From Candidatus Nitrosopumilus sp. (GTDB lineage Archaea > Thermoproteota > Nitrososphaeria > Nitrososphaerales > Nitrosopumilaceae): DNA of 64,000 nt. The translations under genes were made by a program, and so were the position numbers. Below are positions 2,059 to 10,982 of the stretch, piece after piece (position 1 is the stretch's first letter; every line of letters begins with the position of its first letter). The notes below the pieces were generated by a model. That model saw only the letters and a list, made by a program, of their open reading frames with translations, ran no database searches and was not told where the DNA came from. Where the stretch lies: NCBI RefSeq assembly GCF_028278985.1, contig NZ_JANQTA010000018.1:1-64000 (forward strand). Reading direction: 5' to 3'.

Positions 2059-3153
2059 TTAGCAGGCACATTTATCTTCAATGCTGCTCAGATTATCAAG
2101 ATACATTCCTTCTTTCTTGTATTCTTCAACTACTGATGCTACATCTTTACTTAATTTAATGGCAATATGATTTGCAACTACGGCAAATCTCTGTTGAAAT
2201 TTGTAAATAAAGCAAAAAATCATATCGTGTTGTTGTAGCAACGGACCAGTTACATATAGTCCTGGAGATTTTGTAGATTCATCATATGAGTTTAGTTGTG
2301 CTTTTCCTTCCTCCCAATCAAACAACTCTTTGATTAATGATAGACTTCCTGCAAATCCTGTTGCAAGAATTGGTTTTGTTTTTGACGGAATTTTCTTTTG
2401 TTCAGTATAAACTGTATATTCATCTTGATTCTTTTCTACTTTGATAACTCTTCCAGTATGAAATTCAATTGTGTTGTTGGCATTAGCCCTTCTAAGTCTG
2501 TCTTTTGTATATGGTGATATTGTTCTGCTAGGATCAATATCTTCACTCTCAAGCAAGTTTTCCTTGTCAATAATTAGAACACGCTTTTTTCTTTCAGCCA
2601 AATTAATTGCCGTATCCATACCACTTTCATAACCCCCAACAACTAAAAATTCATCACCCTGAACTTCATCCCAATTGGTAATCAGACTGTTATGGATACA
2701 ATGCTCTGAACCTGGAAATGTATTGTCTTTTGGATATTGAAATTCACCACCAGACCAAACTAAGATTTGTGTTTCAATATTTCCTTTATCAGTATTGATG
2801 ACAAATCCTTCTTTAGTTTTTGTAACTGAATCTACGTTGGTCCAAGTTTGAACAGGTAACTCAAAATGGTCAGCAAGTTTTTTGAGATAAGCTGCATACT
2901 CATGTCCACTTGGATGTTCTGTTTGAAGTGTCAAAGCTGGAGATGTATCAAAAGAGATAGCGTTAAGATCTATCATTCTAAATGTATTGCTGAAAAATGA
3001 GGGAGTAAGTAACTTCATCTGCTTTGGCCATTTTAGAAACGAACTACCTATTTCATTGCGTTCTATAACTGTAAAATTAATTCCCATCTTTTTTAGAATT
3101 ATTGCAATTCCTATTCCTGATGGCCCTGCACCTACTACGACTACCTCGAACAT
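2059..3153 (-). CDS. FAD/NAD(P)-dependent pyridine nucleotide-disulfide-type oxidoreductase
   Basis: 364 residues with two Rossmann dinucleotide motifs: GAGPSGIG at about residues 8-15 for FAD, and GGYESGMD at about 173-180 for NAD(P)H. The architecture and the early KWPKQMKLLTPSF stretch resemble YpdA/flavin-monooxygenase-like reductases, not dihydrolipoamide dehydrogenases, because no CxxxxC redox pair follows the FAD motif. A Cys-Ala-Cys sits at the very C-terminus, which could be redox active or metal binding. It may be a low-molecular-weight thiol or disulfide reductase, but the substrate is not readable. Confidence 0.75.
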   Translation of the reverse strand: MFEVVVVGAGPSGIGIAIILKKMGINFTVIERNEIGSSFLKWPKQMKLLTPSFFSNTFRMIDLNAISFDTSPALTLQTEHPSGHEYAAYLKKLADHFELPVQTWTNVDSVTKTKEGFVINTDKGNIETQILVWSGGEFQYPKDNTFPGSEHCIHNSLITNWDEVQGDEFLVVGGYESGMDTAINLAERKKRVLIIDKENLLESEDIDPSRTISPYTKDRLRRANANNTIEFHTGRVIKVEKNQDEYTVYTEQKKIPSKTKPILATGFAGSLSLIKELFDWEEGKAQLNSYDESTKSPGLYVTGPLLQQHDMIFCFIYKFQQRFAVVANHIAIKLSKDVASVVEEYKKEGMYLDNLSSIEDKCAC

Positions 3154-3255
3154 AGGTTGTGTTTCGTGCGTAGACTATTAAAACGTTAAATAATTTTATT
3201 AACAATTAATAAGATTCCATTAAATCTTAATATACAAAAATGCCTTAGATTTCCT

Positions 3256-3429
3256 ATGGAAGAATACGAAGCATACGATGTTAAAGCAAGAAAAAAAGTC
3301 AAGATTATTGATCCCGAAGTTGTTCAACTCAAAAACAAGCGTTGGGCACTAAAAGGCAAGAGCTCTGAAACAGGTTTGACAGTATTTCGTATGATTGGAA
3401 AAGAACAAGCAGAAAAACTAAAAAAATAA
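3256..3429 (+). CDS. 57-residue DUF5679-like protein lacking cysteines
   Basis: A 57-codon ORF from ATG 3256 to TAA 3429. The middle (IIDPEVVQLKNKRWALKGK followed by TGLTVFRMIG) matches by eye the pattern of DUF5679 zinc-ribbon proteins, where a lysine-rich strand and a KNGRPALKG-like strand are framed by two CxxC pairs. Here no cysteine is present: the first pair is replaced around YDVKAR and the second around SSETG. It could be a ribbon fold kept without zinc. It sits 9 nt before the next zinc-ribbon gene and probably shares its transcript. A TTAATATAC stretch about 28 nt upstream of the ATG could serve as its TATA box. Confidence 0.7.
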   Translation: MEEYEAYDVKARKKVKIIDPEVVQLKNKRWALKGKSSETGLTVFRMIGKEQAEKLKK

Positions 3430-3438
3430 CTACCGACA

Positions 3439-4245
3439 ATGAGTGATGAAAATCAACCCTACAGTAAAACAGGCAAGTTTGTTGAAAATCTAAAAACCAC
3501 ACAAAATTCTACTGATGAGGATAAAGAGCTATATTCAAAATACGTCCCAAAATATATTCAAAAGAACTGGAAAAGTATATTCTCAAAACAATTGTATGGC
3601 ATTGGAAAAGATATACTTCATACCAATAACCTCTTGATACAATATGGCTTTACAAAACAAAGACCCCCCGTACCTGAACAGGGAAGTAGCCAGTATTCAT
3701 TTACTGATAAAAATGATCAAATACATCTGTGGGGTTTTGGAATGGTATTTGCATCAGGAAATCATGGATTATATTTATGGCGTCATGAATTTGTCCCAAA
3801 ATTACTTGATATTAATTCACTTCCATCCAATGTCTGGTCTCCAGAACAGCTTCCAGAATGTACAATTCCCAAAACTCCTGATGAAACATCATTAATGTTA
3901 CAACTTCTTGTGAAATCCATCAAGTGGTTAGAACGATATGAAAATTGGGTGGTTGCAACATGTGGACAATCATATCGTGATAAATCTCTACGGTCTCCAA
4001 ATTCATCTAGCACATCGTCTCTTTATTTAGATCAAAAGTGGTCAGAGTTAAATGAAAAATTTGAAAAAATTCTAAAGAATTCTGAACCGGAACCCGTTGA
4101 GGATGTTATTGAAACAGAACCTGTACAACCAAATTTTGAGCAGCCTTCTGTTGTGCCAAAGAACACTTGTGGAGCCTGTGGTGAAAACTATCCTGAAGAC
4201 ATGAAATTCTGTCCATCTTGTAGTTGGGAAGAATTACCCTGCTAA
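3439..4245 (+). CDS. Uncharacterised protein with C-terminal zinc ribbon
   Basis: 268 residues. The first 200 form a soluble domain with several aromatic stretches (for example HLWGFGMVF and WRHEFVPKLL) that I do not recognise. A Pro/Glu-rich linker follows, then a compact zinc ribbon of the pattern CxxCxxx-CPSC (CGACGENY near residue 243, CPSC near 258). Such tails are common in archaeal proteins and give no specific function. The ATG at 3439 lies 9 nt after the preceding small gene. Its TAA overlaps the TAG of the convergent feoB by 4 nt. Confidence 0.7.
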   Translation: MSDENQPYSKTGKFVENLKTTQNSTDEDKELYSKYVPKYIQKNWKSIFSKQLYGIGKDILHTNNLLIQYGFTKQRPPVPEQGSSQYSFTDKNDQIHLWGFGMVFASGNHGLYLWRHEFVPKLLDINSLPSNVWSPEQLPECTIPKTPDETSLMLQLLVKSIKWLERYENWVVATCGQSYRDKSLRSPNSSSTSSLYLDQKWSELNEKFEKILKNSEPEPVEDVIETEPVQPNFEQPSVVPKNTCGACGENYPEDMKFCPSCSWEELPC

Positions 4246-5879
4246 ATTCCACCAAGTTTCAAAATTTTATCTGAATGTGCTAGCAGTAATGTAAACGCAG
4301 TTACTGCAACAACCTGTTTTCCTATCATTTTAAGTGCAAATATCCATGACATTTCACGAATGACTGTCAAGAAAGTTACAATACATGGAAGCAAGGTTCC
4401 AGCAAGATAAACTGCTGTCAAAATCTGTATTGCAGAAAGTGAGTTTACTAGACTTGGTTCAGCAAGTAGCAACAAACCGTCTTTTCGAATAGATCCAAAA
4501 ATTATTGCAAGTGCTGAATCCTCAGGCAGATTGAAAAATTGCATTAGAAAACCAATCTCATTTGCAAAATAATCAATAATACCTATCCAATCTATGATGG
4601 ATGCAACAAATGTGATTGCAAAGAAAATCGGAAGTGCCATCTTAAAGAATTGACTAATGTTACTCTTTGATTCTCTCCAAATTGAACTAAATGAAGGCCT
4701 CTCAAAGAATACTTGACCTTCAATCACTGGCATGTTTAACTTTAAGCGATTTTCCTTTCTGCTAACTAGTCTGGTGTAAAGAATTGTAGTTCCAGTCAAA
4801 TAAAGCAAGAATGGGGTTACCAACCATGGCATTCCTGCAGCAGCAAAAACCGCAATAGATGAACCAAATTGATACGAACATGCAGAGCCAAAACTAATTG
4901 CAGAAACAGTTGAACCTCTTGAACAACTCGAACAGGATCTACTACTGATGACAGCCGGTACATTACAACCAAATCCCATAACTATTCGAGTTACATCTCT
5001 TCCACTGACTCCGATTCTTTTTACTAGAGGATGGATTGCTAATGATGTTCTGTCTAACAACCCTGTAGCTTTGTAAATTCCAAGTAATACTGCGTATATT
5101 ACAACTACAGGAGCTGCCCAAACAAAAAGAAATGGACCCATAGAAACGAATCCATAATCTCCTGCAAGAATATCTCTTAATGGCGATGGAAGCGTATTCA
5201 GGTATTCTATTGGTACAGTAAGGAGATTTGAAATAATTGGATGAACAAAGTCTGCAAAATAATTTGCTCCAATAACTGATAGAATAGATGGAGAAAGCAA
5301 TAATGCCAATCCAATTAAAATTCCCATGTGCTCTTTTTCCAGAACTGTTGGTTTTGGTTTAATTGAAATTCCTGTATGAAATGTTTTGTTTGAAAATGTT
5401 CTTGGATTCTCTAAAGCATCAAAAATTTTACTTTTTTGAGATTCGGTAATTCTTCTTGCATCAACAGGTATTATTGGTACTTTAAGATCTTGCTCTAGAT
5501 TTTCCAGTTTTGTTGCAGCATTTTTTGAATTGACTCTGTCCCAATTTGTTGCTATTATTACTCCTTTTTTGTTTTTGATTAATGGAAGAAAATATTCAAG
5601 ATCATCGTCAATGTTTGTGGCACGTGCAACAAGCAATATCGTGTCGTTTCCTTGCATTGATGAAATTGCAATCTTTGTTGTTTCGCTGTCTGAGTCAAAA
5701 ACAATCCCAGGTGTATCGATGAAGGTGTATTCATCTTTGTTGTAAGATTCTCTTGAAACAGTAGAACCTTTAAGATTACTACTTTCAGCATACTTTCCTG
5801 TAAGTGAGGAGATTAATTGTGATTTTCCAACTCCTTCTTTTCCAATTACTGCAAATTGAAAATATTCATTATATGTCAT
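4242..5879 (-). CDS. feoB: FeoB-type ferrous iron transporter, short form
   Basis: 545 residues. An N-terminal GTPase domain has a P-loop GKEGVGKS (about residues 13-20), DTPG near residue 56 and a TNWD motif in place of the usual NKxD. A membrane part with about seven or eight hydrophobic segments follows, with the FeoB gate signature GFGCNVPAV near residue 302 and GSIRKDGLLLLA near 460. Bacterial FeoB is about 750-770 residues, so this form is compact. Directly after the gate motif is an unusual cysteine cluster (SCSSCS), then another Cys. FeoB imports Fe(II) across the cytoplasmic membrane. No FeoA is adjacent, but a small unknown gene precedes it by 20 nt. Confidence 0.88.
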   Translation of the reverse strand: MTYNEYFQFAVIGKEGVGKSQLISSLTGKYAESSNLKGSTVSRESYNKDEYTFIDTPGIVFDSDSETTKIAISSMQGNDTILLVARATNIDDDLEYFLPLIKNKKGVIIATNWDRVNSKNAATKLENLEQDLKVPIIPVDARRITESQKSKIFDALENPRTFSNKTFHTGISIKPKPTVLEKEHMGILIGLALLLSPSILSVIGANYFADFVHPIISNLLTVPIEYLNTLPSPLRDILAGDYGFVSMGPFLFVWAAPVVVIYAVLLGIYKATGLLDRTSLAIHPLVKRIGVSGRDVTRIVMGFGCNVPAVISSRSCSSCSRGSTVSAISFGSACSYQFGSSIAVFAAAGMPWLVTPFLLYLTGTTILYTRLVSRKENRLKLNMPVIEGQVFFERPSFSSIWRESKSNISQFFKMALPIFFAITFVASIIDWIGIIDYFANEIGFLMQFFNLPEDSALAIIFGSIRKDGLLLLAEPSLVNSLSAIQILTAVYLAGTLLPCIVTFLTVIREMSWIFALKMIGKQVVAVTAFTLLLAHSDKILKLGGI

Positions 5880-5899
5880 AAAAAAAATGTGAATTGGAC

Positions 5900-6154
5900 C
5901 TAGCTACATGATATCTTATTGATTTGAAATATTTCAGTCATGGTGGCATACTCTTCGATTTTTTGTTGTATGTCATCAGAAGTTGTATCATCCATGCCAG
6001 AAAAACCAGCTTGGAAAGCGATTTTATTTCCAGATACGTTCACATTTGCCACCTCCATATCTGCATAGACGTTAACGATTTCATTAGCCCACTCTTGTGC
6101 TTCGTTTTGGTCCACGTTTTGGACGTCAAGATTTACTTGAATCATCTTTGTCAT
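5900..6154 (-). CDS. Small unknown protein upstream of feoB
   Basis: 84 residues, acidic (pattern of alternating Val/Asp/Asn strands and a Glu-rich helix), reading like a compact alpha/beta domain. It ends CS and has no CxxC pair or membrane segment. It does not look like FeoA (no SH3-like beta barrel pattern of Gly and Leu). It is 20 nt upstream of feoB on the same strand, so co-transcription is likely. The ATG at 6154 is preceded by AT-rich sequence. It may be a cytosolic partner of the transporter, by position only. Confidence 0.6.
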   Translation of the reverse strand: MTKMIQVNLDVQNVDQNEAQEWANEIVNVYADMEVANVNVSGNKIAFQAGFSGMDDTTSDDIQQKIEEYATMTEIFQINKISCS

Positions 6155-6340
6155 ATGCCCACTTTTAGGCTCGCCCTATTTATCTATTATTAAAAATACC
6201 ATGAGATTTGATATTTATTATTAAAAATCACTAATTTACTAATAATTCTAAGAATGGCACCTGCCGACTTGTAGAATAAACAACATTTTCTAATTTTGTG
6301 TTAACAGGAATAGTAAATTAAACAAAGTAGGATTTTCAGA

Positions 6341-6892
6341 TCAAACTTTTGGAAGAGTTATTCCTTTTTGGTTTTGATATTTTCCTTTTCTGTCTTTGTA
6401 TGTTGTTTCGGGCTCTTCGTCACTTTCAAAAAACAAGACTTGAGCCAGGCCTTCATTTGCATAAATTTTTGCCGGTAATGGGGTTGTATTTGATATCTCT
6501 AGAGTTACATGACCTTCCCATTCAGGTTCAAATGGTGTGACATTAACTATAATTCCACATCTAGCATAAGTTGATTTTCCAAGACATACAGTCATTACAT
6601 TTTTTGGGATTTTGAAATATTCAACACTACGTGCAAGTGCAAATGAATTTGGAGGGACGATACACACTGGTCCTTTAAAATCAACAAAAGATTCAGAACT
6701 GAAATTTTTTGGGTCAATTATTGAATTGTTCACATTTGTAAAAATCTTAAACTCATCAGATACCCGCAAATCATATCCAAAAGACGAAACTCCATATGAA
6801 ATTGCATCGTCTCTCATCTGTGCTTGTTCAAAGGGTTCTATCATCCCATTTTCTAATGCTTGTTTTTTTATCCATCTGTCATTTTTGATCAT
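6341..6892 (-). CDS. dcd: dCTP deaminase
   Basis: 183 residues, the normal length for the family. Visible marks are the [13 protein letters not shown] segment (about residues 36-48), the KSTYARCGI stretch near residue 105, the catalytic-glutamate region [16 protein letters not shown], and the C-terminal [13 protein letters not shown] loop that closes over the triphosphate. The enzyme turns dCTP into dUTP for dTTP synthesis; some archaeal forms also hydrolyse dUTP, and the sequence alone does not decide. It fits with the ThyX-like gene at 55 kb only if that protein is a thymidylate synthase. Confidence 0.93.
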
Positions 6893-6917
6893 ACTGTTTA
6901 CTTACACCTCGACATTT

Positions 6918-7076
6918 TCAATAACCAATTTTTTCTATTGTACACAATACAGGACGTTCTTTACCACATTTTATGCAAATTTCAGAATGATTGCTGTTTA
7001 TTTTTCCGCATGGACATTTCCAATAATCTATAGTGAAACTATGGTCCTCTTTTGTTGAGTCTAGGTTATTTTTCAT
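6918..7076 (-). CDS. 52-residue zinc-ribbon microprotein
   Basis: An ORF from ATG 7076 to TGA 6918. It contains two metal-knuckle pairs, CPCG near residue 21 and CIKCG near residue 34, then a lone Cys near 45. This is the arrangement of a small rubredoxin-like or ribbon fold. It lies 25 nt upstream of dcd on the same strand, so it may be co-transcribed. The function is unknown. Support comes from the motif and from the otherwise empty 370-nt gap. Confidence 0.6.
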   Translation of the reverse strand: MKNNLDSTKEDHSFTIDYWKCPCGKINSNHSEICIKCGKERPVLCTIEKIGY

Positions 7077-7204
7077 TTGTAAATGCCTCTAACAATTATT
7101 TGAATTTCATTTAACAGGTATTTCGTATCTTGTTTTGATTTTTGATTCGATATGATTTTCTTTTCGAGATATTGCACGTCGACGACTAATGATAATAATA
7201 ATTT

Positions 7205-7245
7205 AAGTGCTTATAATAATTATTATTAAGAATTATATAATACTT
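7205..7245 (+). promoter_or_regulatory. Putative operator and TATA box of the cobW operon
   Basis: A perfect 12-bp palindrome TAATAATTATTA (7214-7225) is flanked by near-matching CTTA/TAAG arms. A TATATAATA element at about 7235-7243 lies about 20-27 nt before the ATG, as expected for a leaderless archaeal gene. The AT palindrome next to TGATAATAATAA resembles Fur-superfamily boxes in style, which would suit a metal-chaperone operon. That link is inferred. Confidence 0.45.
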
Positions 7246-7261
7246 AATAATTGGTTGATCT

Positions 7262-8644
7262 ATGAGTGATACCAATCAACAAGTAGAAACAGTTCGTCCT
7301 AGTGATTATCGTGTTCCAGTTACTGTAGTTACTGGATTTCTAGGTTCTGGGAAAACCACTTTACTAAATTATATTCTAACAAAAGAACATGGAAAACGAA
7401 TTGCAGTAATCGAAAATGAATTTGGAGAAATTGGAATTGATAATGAGTTAGTAGTTGGTGCAGATGAAGAAATTTTTGAGATGAGTAATGGTTGTATTTG
7501 CTGCACTGTTAGAGGAGATCTTATTAGAGTTTTAGGAAACCTAATGAAAAGAAAAGACAAATTTGATTATATTTTAATTGAAACAACCGGTATGGCAGAC
7601 CCATCACCAGTTGCCCAAACATTCTTTGTTGATGATGATACAAAAGATAGTTTTGATCTTGACGCAATAGTTACAGTTGTTGATGCAAAACATGTTTGGC
7701 AACATATTGATGATAGTAGTGAATGCCAAGAACAAATCGCCTTTGCAGATATTATTTTACTAAATAAAACAGACCTTGTTACACCTGCTGAGATAGACAA
7801 GTTAGAACAAAAAATCTATTCTATGAATTCATTGGTTAAAATTTACCGAACACAAAATTCTGAAGTAGAACTTGAAAAGATTCTAAATGTAAAATCATTT
7901 GATCTAAAAGGAAAATTAGAACGCAAGCCAGATTTCCTTAAGGAAGATTTACCCTTTGAATGGATTGGAAAATACAAAATTTCAAACGGTCTTTATGAGA
8001 TTAATTTCAAAGAAGGACCTGACCCATCTATTAACATGGCAGTAATTCCTGTTAAGGAATCAGATGACATGGAATCAATCAAAGATATGGGTGTGAGAAC
8101 ATTTTCCAATAATATTGGCCCATATGCTAACGAGGATACGTTCACTCAATCCGAAAATCCAATAAAATTCACATTTCCTGAAGAGGGTTCATCAAAAATA
8201 AAATTCAAAATTGAAAATTCTGATTCAGATACATATGCAATATTTACAGAACATCTTCCTTCAGAGTATGAAATGACAATTTTAGATGGTGAACAAGTTA
8301 AAGAGCCACTAGAAACAAAGATTTATCCTCATAGTCACACTCACGACAATACCGTTTCTTCAATTGGAATAGACATTCCTGGTTCTGTTGATTACAACAA
8401 ATTTAATGAGTGGTTAGGAGATCTTTTACGAACAAAAGGAACTGACATCTTCCGCTCAAAGGGAATTGTTAGCATTAAAGATAGAGATGATAGAATCATT
8501 TTCCAAGGCGTACACATGTTACTTGATGTTACATCTGATAGACAATGGGAAGAAAATGAACAGAGAATAAACAATCTTGTATTCATCGGACGAAATCTGA
8601 ATCGAGAAGAAATCACAAAAGGATTTAGTTCATGTCTAATCTAA
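7262..8644 (+). CDS. CobW/COG0523-family GTPase, putative metal chaperone
   Basis: 460 residues. The P-loop [11 protein letters not shown] is near residue 24, the diagnostic CxCC metal site lies in [12 protein letters not shown] near residue 77, and ETTGMADP and NKTD motifs follow. A His cluster (HSHTHD, about residue 357) precedes the CobW C-terminal domain. The insertion between GTPase and C-terminal domains (about residues 220-350) is longer than in YeiR/YciC-like members. COG0523 proteins deliver Zn, Co or Fe to target enzymes. It starts an apparent operon with a WD40 protein (13-nt overlap) and precorrin-2 dehydrogenase, which could mean a link with metal insertion into tetrapyrroles, or a plain zinc role. 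Confidence 0.88.
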
Positions 8645-9672
8645 AAAATGAAGAAAAAAAATCAGATAGCATAGAACGTTGGGTTTTTGAGATATCTGAT
8701 TTTGCATCTAATGTGAAATGGTCTTATGATGGAATGTTTGTAGCAGTTGCATTAGTTTCAGGACCGATTAAGATTTTTAATTCCAAAAATGGTGAAGAAA
8801 AAACTTTGGACGGTCATGAATTTGGAACCATGGAAATTAGCTGGTCTCCTGATAATTCCAAACTAGCATCTGTAGGACAAGATGGTCATGTCAAGATTTG
8901 GAATGTTAAAACCCAAAAAATTACCAAGACATTGAAAGGAGGTTCTCAGTGGGTTGAGCATGTGTCTTGGTCTCCTAATGGCGATTATATTGCATCTGCA
9001 GCAGGTAAGATTCTAAAAATTTGGAGTTCAGATGGTAATCTGTTTCAAGAATACAAGGAACATCCAAGTACTATTACTGCATTTCAATGGAATGCAAATG
9101 GTACCGAGATTGCAACTACATCTTATGGAAAAATTTTGATTTTTCTAATTGGTGTAGATGAACCTAAGACAACCTTACCTTATCCAAGCTCTTTGGTATC
9201 TTTGTCTTGGCATTCAAGTGGAAAATGGATTGTTGCTGGTACACAAGAAGGTTCACTGGGTGGTTGGGAGTTACCCCCTACGGATGATTCACATTTTGAA
9301 ATAAATGGATACGAGACAAAAGTGACTCATTTATCTTGGAGTAAAAATGGAAGAAACCTTGCCTCTGCCGGAGGTAGCATGATTGTGATTTGGGATTTTT
9401 CAGGTAAGGGGCCAGAAGGAAAAGAGGCTAAAGTTCTTAGAGATGATAGAAGAATTACACAAATGTCTTACCAAAATAATGGAGATCTTTTAGTTTCTGG
9501 TACTAAGGATGGCTCGATTCTATTTTGGAGACCAACAGTTCCTGAAAAACCAAGACTTGTCTTTGAAGTGGATGGAGCAATAAGCCAATTAGAATGGTCA
9601 AAGGATGGTTCTTCTCTTGTAGTGTGCAGTGAAGATGGCAAAGTAAGAATTTGGAAATCACCTAGAGGTTAA
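8632..9672 (+). CDS. WD40-repeat beta-propeller protein
   Basis: 346 residues made of about seven WD40 units, each with a variant of the LxWSPDGxxLASxGxDGxVxIW pattern (for instance near residues 60-93, 98-135 and 300-345). It has no signal peptide or membrane segment, so it is probably a cytosolic scaffold. It overlaps the cobW stop by 13 nt and is 9 nt before the siroheme synthase gene, so the three are likely translated from one mRNA. The partner is not known; the position suggests a role with the CobW GTPase. Confidence 0.85.
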
Positions 9673-9680
9673 GTGAAAAA

Positions 9681-10340
9681 ATGATTGTTGATTTGGATCT
9701 AAAGGGAGGTCACGTAATTCTCATTGGAAGTGGTTTTGAAGGAATGTTGAAGTTAAAATCACTACTAACACAAGATTGTAAGATTTTGGTTTTCAGTGAA
9801 GAATCCAATAAAGAAATTCAGAAATATGTTAAACAAAAAAAGATTACTTTTAAGAAATTGAAAATAAAAAATTTGGATTTTTTAGAAAAATATGACCCAG
9901 TTATGATAATGGCTACAACTGAAGATAAAGAACTTAATAGAAAAATTTACGAAAAGGCAAAAGCCATGAATTGTTATGGTTATACAGTAGATGATCCATC
10001 ATTCAGTGATTTTTCTCATCCATCACTTATCAACATAGAAAACTTGGTGCAAATTGCAATATCTACTAAGGGAAAAAGCCCAATAATGTCAAAAAAGATA
10101 AGAATTGAATCAGAAAAAATCTTTAAAAAAATAATAAAAAAAGAATATCTGAACTACATTCGAATTCATGAATATGCTAGGGATCTGGCTAAAACGAAAA
10201 TTCAAACTGCCGATGAGCGAAGAGAATTCATGTATAGCCTGATGGATGATAAGAAACTCAATCGAAGTCTAAAAACAGGAAAACTAGCTGACGCAAAAAA
10301 GCAAATCAAAGTACTGTTTGATTTGTGGGTACAAAATTAG
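9681..10340 (+). CDS. Precorrin-2 dehydrogenase / siroheme synthase N-terminal (Met8/CysG-B type)
   Basis: 219 residues. An N-terminal Rossmann fold has GGHVILIGSGFEG, slightly diverged from the usual GGGxVA, then the family's VDDPSFSDFSHPSL segment (about residues 107-120) and ISTKGKSPIMSKKIR near 132-147. The C-terminal third is helical and basic. The reaction is NAD-dependent oxidation of precorrin-2 to sirohydrochlorin, and Met8-type members also insert Fe. A siroheme-dependent reductase (32.7 kb) and a CbiX-type chelatase (42.9 kb) are in the same window, so the pathway toward siroheme is plausible. Confidence 0.85.
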   Translation: MIVDLDLKGGHVILIGSGFEGMLKLKSLLTQDCKILVFSEESNKEIQKYVKQKKITFKKLKIKNLDFLEKYDPVMIMATTEDKELNRKIYEKAKAMNCYGYTVDDPSFSDFSHPSLINIENLVQIAISTKGKSPIMSKKIRIESEKIFKKIIKKEYLNYIRIHEYARDLAKTKIQTADERREFMYSLMDDKKLNRSLKTGKLADAKKQIKVLFDLWVQN

Positions 10341-10397
10341 TTTATCTTCTTGAAATTGACATTCAAGTTTTGTATTAAATAAAAAAAGAACAAGTGG

Positions 10398-10478
10398 TTA
10401 TCCACAAGTACAATTACAACTATTGTCATTGTTACATGAACTGCCACATGTGCAAGTACATTTACATTCGTCTGTCAT
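10398..10478 (-). CDS. 26-residue metallothionein-like Cys-rich peptide
   Basis: From ATG 10478 to TAA 10398 the peptide has 8 cysteines in 26 residues, arranged CxCxCxC, then x3, C, x5, CxCxC. That is the density and spacing of a metallothionein, though it matches no family I can name. A GGAGGTG Shine-Dalgarno stretch lies 4-6 nt before this ATG, which decides the start over an in-frame ATG at 10496 that would add six residues. It is divergent from an HxlR-type regulator, with palindromic DNA between them. It probably binds Cu(I), Zn(II) or another soft metal in the cytoplasm. Confidence 0.7.
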   Translation of the reverse strand: MTDECKCTCTCGSSCNNDNSCNCTCG

Positions 10479-10500
10479 GCCTTCACCTCCACTCATTTTC

Positions 10501-10556
10501 CTATAGTAACTATAGAAAGTTAAGTTAATAAACAGTCAAGTGTCAATAACTATAGT
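10501..10556. promoter_or_regulatory. Palindromic operator candidates between metallothionein-like gene and HxlR regulator
   Basis: CTATAGTAACTATAG (10501-10515) is a perfect inverted repeat of 7-bp arms around one base. A second self-complementary ACTATAGT occurs at 10549-10556. The repeated core matches a dimeric winged-helix regulator, and the two sites lie within about 25 nt of the two divergent starts. They could be TATA-overlapping operators for the gene pair. Confidence 0.5.
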
Positions 10557-10574
10557 AGGTTAGGTTTTGTTAAG

Positions 10575-10982
10575 TTGCCACGAATTATAGATTTTCTACC
10601 AGAAACTTGCAAAAATGAACCAATTGATAATACTTTTAGAATTATTGGCAAAAAATTTACTATTCATATTCTACGAAACATGGTGATACTTGATCAAAAC
10701 AGGTTTAACGAATTACTAAATTCAATTGAAGGGATTAACCCTAACACATTATCTGCTAGATTACGTGAAATGGAGAAAGAACGATTAATTGAAAAAAATA
10801 TCACAAAAGGCAATCCTGTCAAAATCGAATACTCGTTAACCAATAAAGGAAGAGCACTTCAACCTATCTTAGAAGAGATGGCAAAATTTTCAATGAAATT
10901 TTGTTGCGATGATATTTTTAAAGACGCAAAGCCTCGTACGTTTAAACAGGTCTATGGAAACACCTTGCCAATAATTGACTAG
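10575..10982 (+). CDS. HxlR-family winged-helix transcription regulator
   Basis: 135 residues from a TTG start. The HxlR/DUF24 pattern is clear: an early Cys (residue 12), GKKFTIHILRNM, the recognition region NPNTLSARLREMEKERLIEK (about residues 56-75), and a wing followed by LTNKGRALQPIL. Extra cysteines at residues 110-111 (FCCDD) are not typical and could sense thiols or metal. Family members act as dimers, and the N-terminal Cys is often the redox switch. Its neighbour is a Cys-rich peptide on the opposite strand, so the regulator probably controls that gene and itself. Confidence 0.82.
   Translation: MPRIIDFLPETCKNEPIDNTFRIIGKKFTIHILRNMVILDQNRFNELLNSIEGINPNTLSARLREMEKERLIEKNITKGNPVKIEYSLTNKGRALQPILEEMAKFSMKFCCDDIFKDAKPRTFKQVYGNTLPIID

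Follow-up and report, generated by a model that had tools for sequence, protein, structure and literature searches.

A putative metallothionein-like peptide and its divergent HxlR-family regulator: a conserved gene pair in Nitrosopumilaceae

The window analysed here, i.e. the whole stretch of 64,000 nucleotides from the genome G000 (1.69 Mb, 99% complete) of a marine ammonia-oxidising archaeon (AOA), contains a short cysteine-rich peptide gene and, divergent from it, a gene for an HxlR-family regulator; judged by comparative genomics, the two can with high confidence be regarded as a real conserved module, which spans about 600 bp with its own operator included. The explanation we favour, and hold to be fairly probable, is that the peptide is a metallothionein-like thiol/metal buffer, monocistronic and under the control of its own autoregulated, divergent HxlR repressor of a derived, YodB-like, Cys-sensing type, the expression as well as the binding of DNA and metal being inferred. 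If this is true, the HxlR-family regulators gain a metallothionein-like target, and a regulated cytosolic Cys peptide would offer a concrete sequestration route for the copper of AOA, though few species carry the pair. A literature search, from which subscription literature was largely missing, found no publication linking HxlR with metallothionein, no use of phrases of the 'archaeal metallothionein' type and no description of the peptide-HxlR pair.

The peptide gene and the conservation of the pair

The features of the locus are collected in Table 1. The peptide frame extends from an ATG at 10478 to a stop at 10400-10398, its product being MTDECKCTCTCGSSCNNDNSCNCTCG (26 aa), in which 8 of the 26 residues are Cys and six CxC motifs were counted by reading. 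The sequence-only reading had claimed a 26-residue peptide with eight Cys and a good Shine-Dalgarno sequence, and this is confirmed, the latter, GGAGGTGA, being the same in all six loci discussed below. A longer frame with MSGGEGM as its start was rejected, its upstream ATG missing in G232; the conservation of GG(D/E) seen in that frame arises because GG(D/E) is the Shine-Dalgarno sequence itself. Past the peptide stop, a run of T6 or longer begins within 20 nt in 6/6 loci, compared with a background of 9% when 60-nt stretches are drawn at random from the window.

Table 1 Features of the peptide-regulator locus in the window
Feature	Position	Strand	Basis
T7 tract behind the peptide stop, probable transcription terminator	10381..10387	-	T6 or longer in 6/6 loci
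Metallothionein-like peptide gene, 26 aa, 8 Cys, CxCxCxC...CxCxC	10398..10478	-	Divergent homologue in 6/6 close-HxlR genomes; Cys codons under purifying selection
Shine-Dalgarno sequence GGAGGTGA of the peptide	10483..10490	-	Identical in 6/6 loci
Palindrome CTATAGTAACTATAG, proposed HxlR operator	10501..10515	.	Element upstream of 56/59 homologues (no binding data)
Promoter core TATAGAAAGTTAAGTTAATAA, TATA-like TTAATAA/TTATTAA, proposed for both genes	10511..10531	.	Conserved in pair loci
Second ACTATAGT, probably incidental	10549..10556	.	Chance level; exact in 2/6 loci
HxlR-family regulator, 135 aa, Cys12, Cys110, Cys111	10575..10982	+	Pfam HxlR; fold match YodB, HypR, QsrR, HxlR

The search for the regulator covered 250 Nitrosopumilaceae genomes, 76 of which match at an E value of 1e-20 or better, the six best matches coming from G000 itself, G047 (90% identity), G038 (80%), G232 (76%), G093 (74%) and G088 (73%). 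All six genomes with an HxlR at least 73% identical encode a divergent CxC-rich peptide of 25-32 aa, and the distance between the peptide and HxlR starts is exactly 96 bp in each of them. These genomes represent G000 and five other species, assigned to four genera by program-assigned genus numbers. The sequence-only reading had advised a search of other thaumarchaeal genomes for the same pair, answered here by the five further species, and would have been refuted by a Cys pattern no longer kept in close relatives; such a loss is not seen, seven columns—C5, C7, C9, C11, C15, C21 and C23—being invariant in the alignment of the six peptides. The peptide from G038 has lost one Cys of its last CxC. 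A pattern combining the Shine-Dalgarno sequence with MxxxCxCxCxC was found in six genomes out of 400 of the order, the very same six (control: 0), the distribution of the pair thus being patchy. Among 60 HxlR loci in named genomes, filtered for peptides of at most 60 aa with at least five Cys, 17% Cys and two CxC, an upstream CxC peptide occurs only in three, belonging to the same species as pair genomes. Weak peptide matches elsewhere (L035-L043, E 0.13-0.96) were rejected as chance frames. Also set aside was a looser MxxxCxCxCxC pattern without the Shine-Dalgarno sequence, which in 100 genomes gave 21 matches in 14 genomes, only two of them being the pair, and matched the reversed control, too. 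Concerning a carrier element, the viral contigs and plasmids searched gave no sign of one: the former contained 136 pattern matches and no relative of the window HxlR, the latter 25 records, all below 60% identity.

The selection acting on the peptide was assessed over the 15 genome pairs. At codon positions 1+2, 20 differences fall in the eight Cys columns and 155 in the twelve non-Cys columns; at position 3 the counts are 37 and 99, respectively. The changes in Cys codons are mostly silent and those elsewhere are free; therefore, the cysteines have been kept and the loops left free, as expected of a metallothionein. In the genome G140, whose HxlR is 64% identical and falls into the same clade, the operator part AGTAGATATAGAAAGTTAAGTT is retained; the Shine-Dalgarno sequence has been lost, and the frame found where the peptide should be has just one Cys. 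The clade of seven sequences—the six paired HxlR proteins and that from G140—is supported by 100/99, with a weakly supported position of G140 inside it, and G140 is read as a case of peptide loss.

With regard to composition, all six peptides are devoid of Phe, Trp and Tyr, and a sole His is present in the peptide from G088, the other five having none. The composition criterion for metallothioneins, i.e. a small size, approximately 20-30% Cys, CxC clusters and almost no aromatics, is met. Membership in a known family is not: the Pfam search with the six pair peptides gave 0 families and the NCBIfam search with the window peptide without its Met gave 0 matches, leaving it outside the known metallothionein sequence families of both databases. 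Metal binding being inferred, the pair peptide is likely to be metallothionein-like in role. As for the earlier idea of a self-contained metal or thiol response module, comparative genomics—the pair in 6/6 genomes, the 96-bp spacing, the operator without another perfect copy in the genome and the poly-T—lends strong support to its module part, and the response part is only inferred from the Cys patterns, the homology to YodB and the neighbouring genes.

The HxlR regulator and the shared intergenic DNA

The regulator gene, starting with TTG at 10575 and with its stop ending at 10982, encodes a protein matching the Pfam family HxlR (PF01638) with an E value of 4.1e-22 and 78.3 bits (cut-off 20.8), no ArsR model being found in Pfam at E up to 1; an HxlR regulator with Cys at 12, 110 and 111, back to back with the peptide, was indeed what had been claimed. 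Its structure was modelled as a monomer from 44 sequences (pLDDT 85.5), a poor first model based on 11 sequences (pLDDT 48.6) having been discarded, and the fold matches those of HxlR (7bze, Z 13.7) and YodB (5hs7, Z 12.6), as well as HypR and QsrR.

The cysteines were compared in an alignment of 62 HxlR homologues—the six paired ones, that from G140 and 55 others, with L065 being N-terminally partial and poorly aligned there. Cys12 and Cys111 are shared by the six paired regulators and G140, with 0/55 of the others having them; Cys110 is found in 6/6, in G140 and in 35/55; and Cys15 in 2/6, in G140 and in 53/55. Position 15 is occupied by Glu in the window protein, G038 and G047, by Asp in G232, and by Cys in G088 and G093. 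In the alignment with YodB through a profile of 44 homologues, Cys15 corresponds to YodB Cys6 and Cys110 to YodB Cys101, the native YodB numbers having been derived from the chain offset. Compared with a YodB-type switch, the C-terminal cysteine is thus at the expected place (Cys110), whereas the N-terminal one is not, Cys12 lying three residues earlier. YodB itself forms Cys6-Cys101' disulfides between its subunits, according to the accessible portions of PMC8063818 and PMC6798810. That a set of three Cys stands in place of one suggests, on the basis of the alignment, a putative metal site. It should be stressed, however, that the link between the Cys set and the peptide is not replicated, since the six paired regulators form one clade, i.e. 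they have a single joint origin.

Two palindromes between the starts had been pointed out in the sequence-only reading. Both are present. The exact copy of CTATAGTAACTATAG is the sole one in the window and the only site without a mismatch in the whole G000 genome; with up to two mismatches, the window has four matches, two of them being both strands of this very site, vs. 0.05 expected. A wider regulon in G000 was not revealed, the palindrome having eight sites at up to two mismatches vs. ten for the reversed control, with only the pair standing out. The second one, ACTATAGT, is not significant and was not kept as a second operator: it is no evidence alone because chance would give 0.57 copies per window (44 of 100 shuffles contain one) and, of the six loci, only those of G000 and G232 have an exact copy.

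The promoter core TATAGAAAGTTAAGTTAATAA is exact in five of the six pair loci and has two mismatches in the sixth. At up to two mismatches it was found in 8/250 genomes, namely the six pair genomes, G140 and G118, the copies in the last two also lying immediately upstream of an HxlR homologue; with the reversed word as control, seven genomes had one match each. The core is inferred to be used in both directions. The leftward order of TTATTAAC, palindrome and Shine-Dalgarno sequence would fit, by inference, an archaeal promoter with a repressor site between the TATA box and the start. The word ACTATAGAAAGGTAAGT, mostly with ATA-N-T-N before it, scores at least 12/17 upstream of 56 of the 59 Nitrososphaerota HxlR homologues (one of 60 loci was dropped, having no upstream DNA) and in 1/59 of the 200-nt coding controls, the coding region being chosen as control because the reference word was drawn from the loci themselves. 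In the absence of binding data, the conservation indicates that the palindrome is not private to the window locus, being the predicted auto-operator of a wider HxlR group.

The partners facing the sister regulators were assigned by eye in the 59 loci, unless named by Pfam. In 13 of them the partner is a SEC-C-like Cys-rich protein of 108-116 aa (the SEC-C match is below the cut-off and absent at E 0.01), in 11 an HxH...CxxC mini-protein of 27-28 aa (with a longer frame given in one), in two a thioredoxin (Pfam), in four a pirin (two Pfam-checked), and in seven a protein of about 105 aa, one of two checked matching DUF3303. The sister regulators thus often, not always, face thiol/metal proteins. 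The 108-116 aa protein (L060, L069-L074, L077-L080; also L081 and L088), divergent from HxlR, has a Cys-rich N-terminus MECTDGTCKIENTENCACGSSKSYDQCCGC... and a helical remainder, no Pfam or NCBIfam family being found for it. The mini-protein, e.g. MTTQTQHKHQWTVTSKHWQCSTCGKTYG, comes from Nitrosotalea-type genomes (L050, L054-L059, L061, L063, L064, L067), and its start is directly behind the operator palindrome. The conserved protein of about 105 aa, MALYGIYGRHEIDACPIN... (L095-L098, L100, L101, L103), is encoded in marine genomes, divergently from a different HxlR group.

It is possible, although we put it forward only tentatively, that an HxlR-family redox switch has here been rebuilt into a metal sensor, Cys15 being lost, Cys12, Cys110 and Cys111 fixed and a metallothionein-like target captured. 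This would be part of an AOA habit, in which one regulator group with a near-constant bidirectional operator swaps its small metal/thiol partner—CxC peptide, HxH...CxxC, SEC-C-like, thioredoxin or pirin.

Neighbouring genes, the metal and the rival explanations

The settings of the pair differ between genomes, the only shared neighbours being those of G088 and G093 and, loosely, of G000, G047 and G140. The HxlR loci of the latter three lie in the same neighbourhood of about 9 kb (2062-10982 in the window), with genes for a FAD protein, a FeoB-like GTPase, CobW, WD40 and a siroheme-type dehydrogenase, which has been reshuffled, since the HxlR locus is found at three different points. The pair of G088 is accompanied by a multicopper oxidase and a DtxR-type repressor, and also by a ZIP-like transporter whose Pfam match stays below the cut-off; ZnuA, NikR-like and ABC genes are in the vicinity, too, and relatives of this oxidase and transporter are present around the pair of G093; DsbA-like proteins are near the pair in both. 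A multicopper oxidase lies 1.8 kb from the pair in G038, and a cupredoxin protein, a cation-efflux protein and a CobW GTPase are near it in G047, G232 and G000, respectively. The oxidase/cupredoxin queries match within 4 kb of 3/6 pair loci vs. 1/32 control HxlR loci (31 with full flanks, and G140 with one flank short); this enrichment (Fisher p 0.009) is post hoc, the queries coming from the pair loci themselves, and is not relied on. Cu-oxidase_3 matches in the six pair genomes range from 1 to 7.

Copper uptake by AOA is thought to proceed via multicopper oxidases and ZIP permeases (PMC7785015, as far as the part available goes), and AOA genomes are said, in the accessible part of PMC9723733, to encode no copper efflux proteins, the copper tolerance in culture being unexplained. 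A P1B metal ATPase of the CopA type was found in G000 and not in the other five pair genomes. That of G000 (L163, G000:C1:10295-12016) has, by eye, GMTCAGC and CPC motifs and adjoins a glutaredoxin-like frame; a CopA-like ATPase also occurs in 4/17 other checked genomes, unlike the no-efflux statement in the available part of PMC9723733. The peptide as a substitute for copper efflux was rejected: the ATPase is absent in 5/6 pair genomes but also in 13/17 others, i.e. there is no anti-correlation. With the evidence coming from the neighbourhood only and metal binding inferred, copper is to be taken as the leading guess rather than as a result. Four genomes of the same genus as the window also share a short conserved frame, MNKICPCKCGCERKISNVYYDTCIFCLLGEH... 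(L140, L142, L145, L146, L153, L154), with two copies each in G160 and G175; this frame may belong to a mobile element or encode a Cys peptide carried by a repeat.

In the explanation we favour, the transcription of the peptide would at rest be blocked by an HxlR dimer on the palindrome (10501-10515), which follows immediately downstream of the leftward TATA-like element. The signal, either a thiol oxidant or a thiophilic metal with Cu(I) as the most likely candidate, would then engage the thiols of Cys12, Cys110' and Cys111'—expected, by homology to YodB Cys6-Cys101', to meet across the dimer interface—and loosen the binding of HxlR to DNA; the peptide would be made, and its CxC thiolates would bind the metal and so end the signal, each of these steps being inferred. 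What counts against this explanation is the lack of a match to any known metallothionein model, the variation of the neighbouring genes together with the post hoc nature of their test and the synteny shared by two of the loci, and the patchy presence of the pair; moreover, HxlR-family members can be activators.

The closest competitors keep the module and change its signal. Zinc or another d10 metal could be stored instead of copper, the peptide buffering Zn(II), Cd(II) or As(III) and the regulator sensing that metal, as might be read from the cation-efflux protein in G232, the CobW GTPase in G000, the ZnuA, NikR-like and ABC genes in G088, and the zinc-binding look of the SEC-C-like and HxH...CxxC partners of the sister regulators; we regard this as doubtful while keeping it in consideration, given the multicopper oxidases or cupredoxin near four of the six pairs, the absence of His from five of the six peptides and their very short all-CxC layout, which is closer to the small fungal Cu(I)-thioneins. 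Rather unlikely, in our opinion, is a thiol-redox module, in which the regulator is an ordinary YodB-type sensor of disulfides or electrophiles and the peptide serves as a redox relay or is sacrificed as a thiol buffer, its binding of metal being of secondary importance. The nearest solved relatives of the regulator are, it is true, the thiol sensors YodB, HypR and QsrR, sister regulators face thioredoxin and pirin, and DsbA-like proteins are found close to two pairs; nevertheless, the canonical redox Cys15 has been exchanged for Glu or Asp in 4/6 paired regulators, the eight Cys have the CxC spacing typical of metal-thiolate clusters, and several metal genes are among the neighbours.

Very little credence can be given to the two remaining readings. 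A secreted or modified signal or antimicrobial peptide with a dedicated regulator would agree with a small, Cys-rich product divergent from its regulator, yet there is no leader, no maturation or export gene was recognised alongside in the loci examined, and the inter-Cys loops vary freely. An untranslated Cys-rich frame, arisen by chance in the regulatory DNA of HxlR, could be defended by the absence of protein evidence and a length of only 26 codons, but it would leave aside that the frame, start, Shine-Dalgarno sequence and Cys codons are kept in 6/6 loci, with silent changes in the Cys codons and free ones elsewhere, and that the frame decayed jointly with its Shine-Dalgarno sequence in G140.

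Comparison with known systems

The cyanobacterial smtA-smtB and nmtA-azuR systems resemble the present pair in having a small Cys-rich protein beside a dedicated repressor and a palindromic operator, the repressor being thought to be lifted by metal (PMC8790569, in its accessible part). Checked against an SmtB-type operon, an adjoining dedicated regulator and a palindrome in between are met in 6/6 loci, the repressor action being inferred. The cyanobacterial repressors, however, belong to the ArsR/SmtB family, a different winged-helix family from HxlR, and the window peptide, from an archaeal host, is not detectably related to the known metallothionein models. It is also half or less the size of the cyanobacterial metallothioneins.

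With YodB, HypR and QsrR, the thiol sensors of the HxlR (= DUF24) family, the regulator shares both the fold and the sequence family, including the equivalence of Cys110 with YodB Cys101 and of position 15 with YodB Cys6. An autoregulatory palindromic operator, predicted for the present regulator, is common to both, with TAGT/ACTA half-sites here and, as given in the available part of PMC8063818, a preference for TACT-N7-AGTA in YodB. The paired regulators differ in having lost Cys15 in 4/6 cases and gained the invariant Cys12 and Cys111, and in the target, which is a metallothionein-like peptide and not a quinone or azo reductase. Finally, the peptide is similar to yeast CUP1 and the copper-thionein from Neurospora crassa in being short, CxC-rich and without Phe, Trp and Tyr. 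No significant sequence relation to the yeast Cu-metallothionein was detected (E 2.3), and the resemblance to the small fungal copper metallothioneins is likely to be a convergence.
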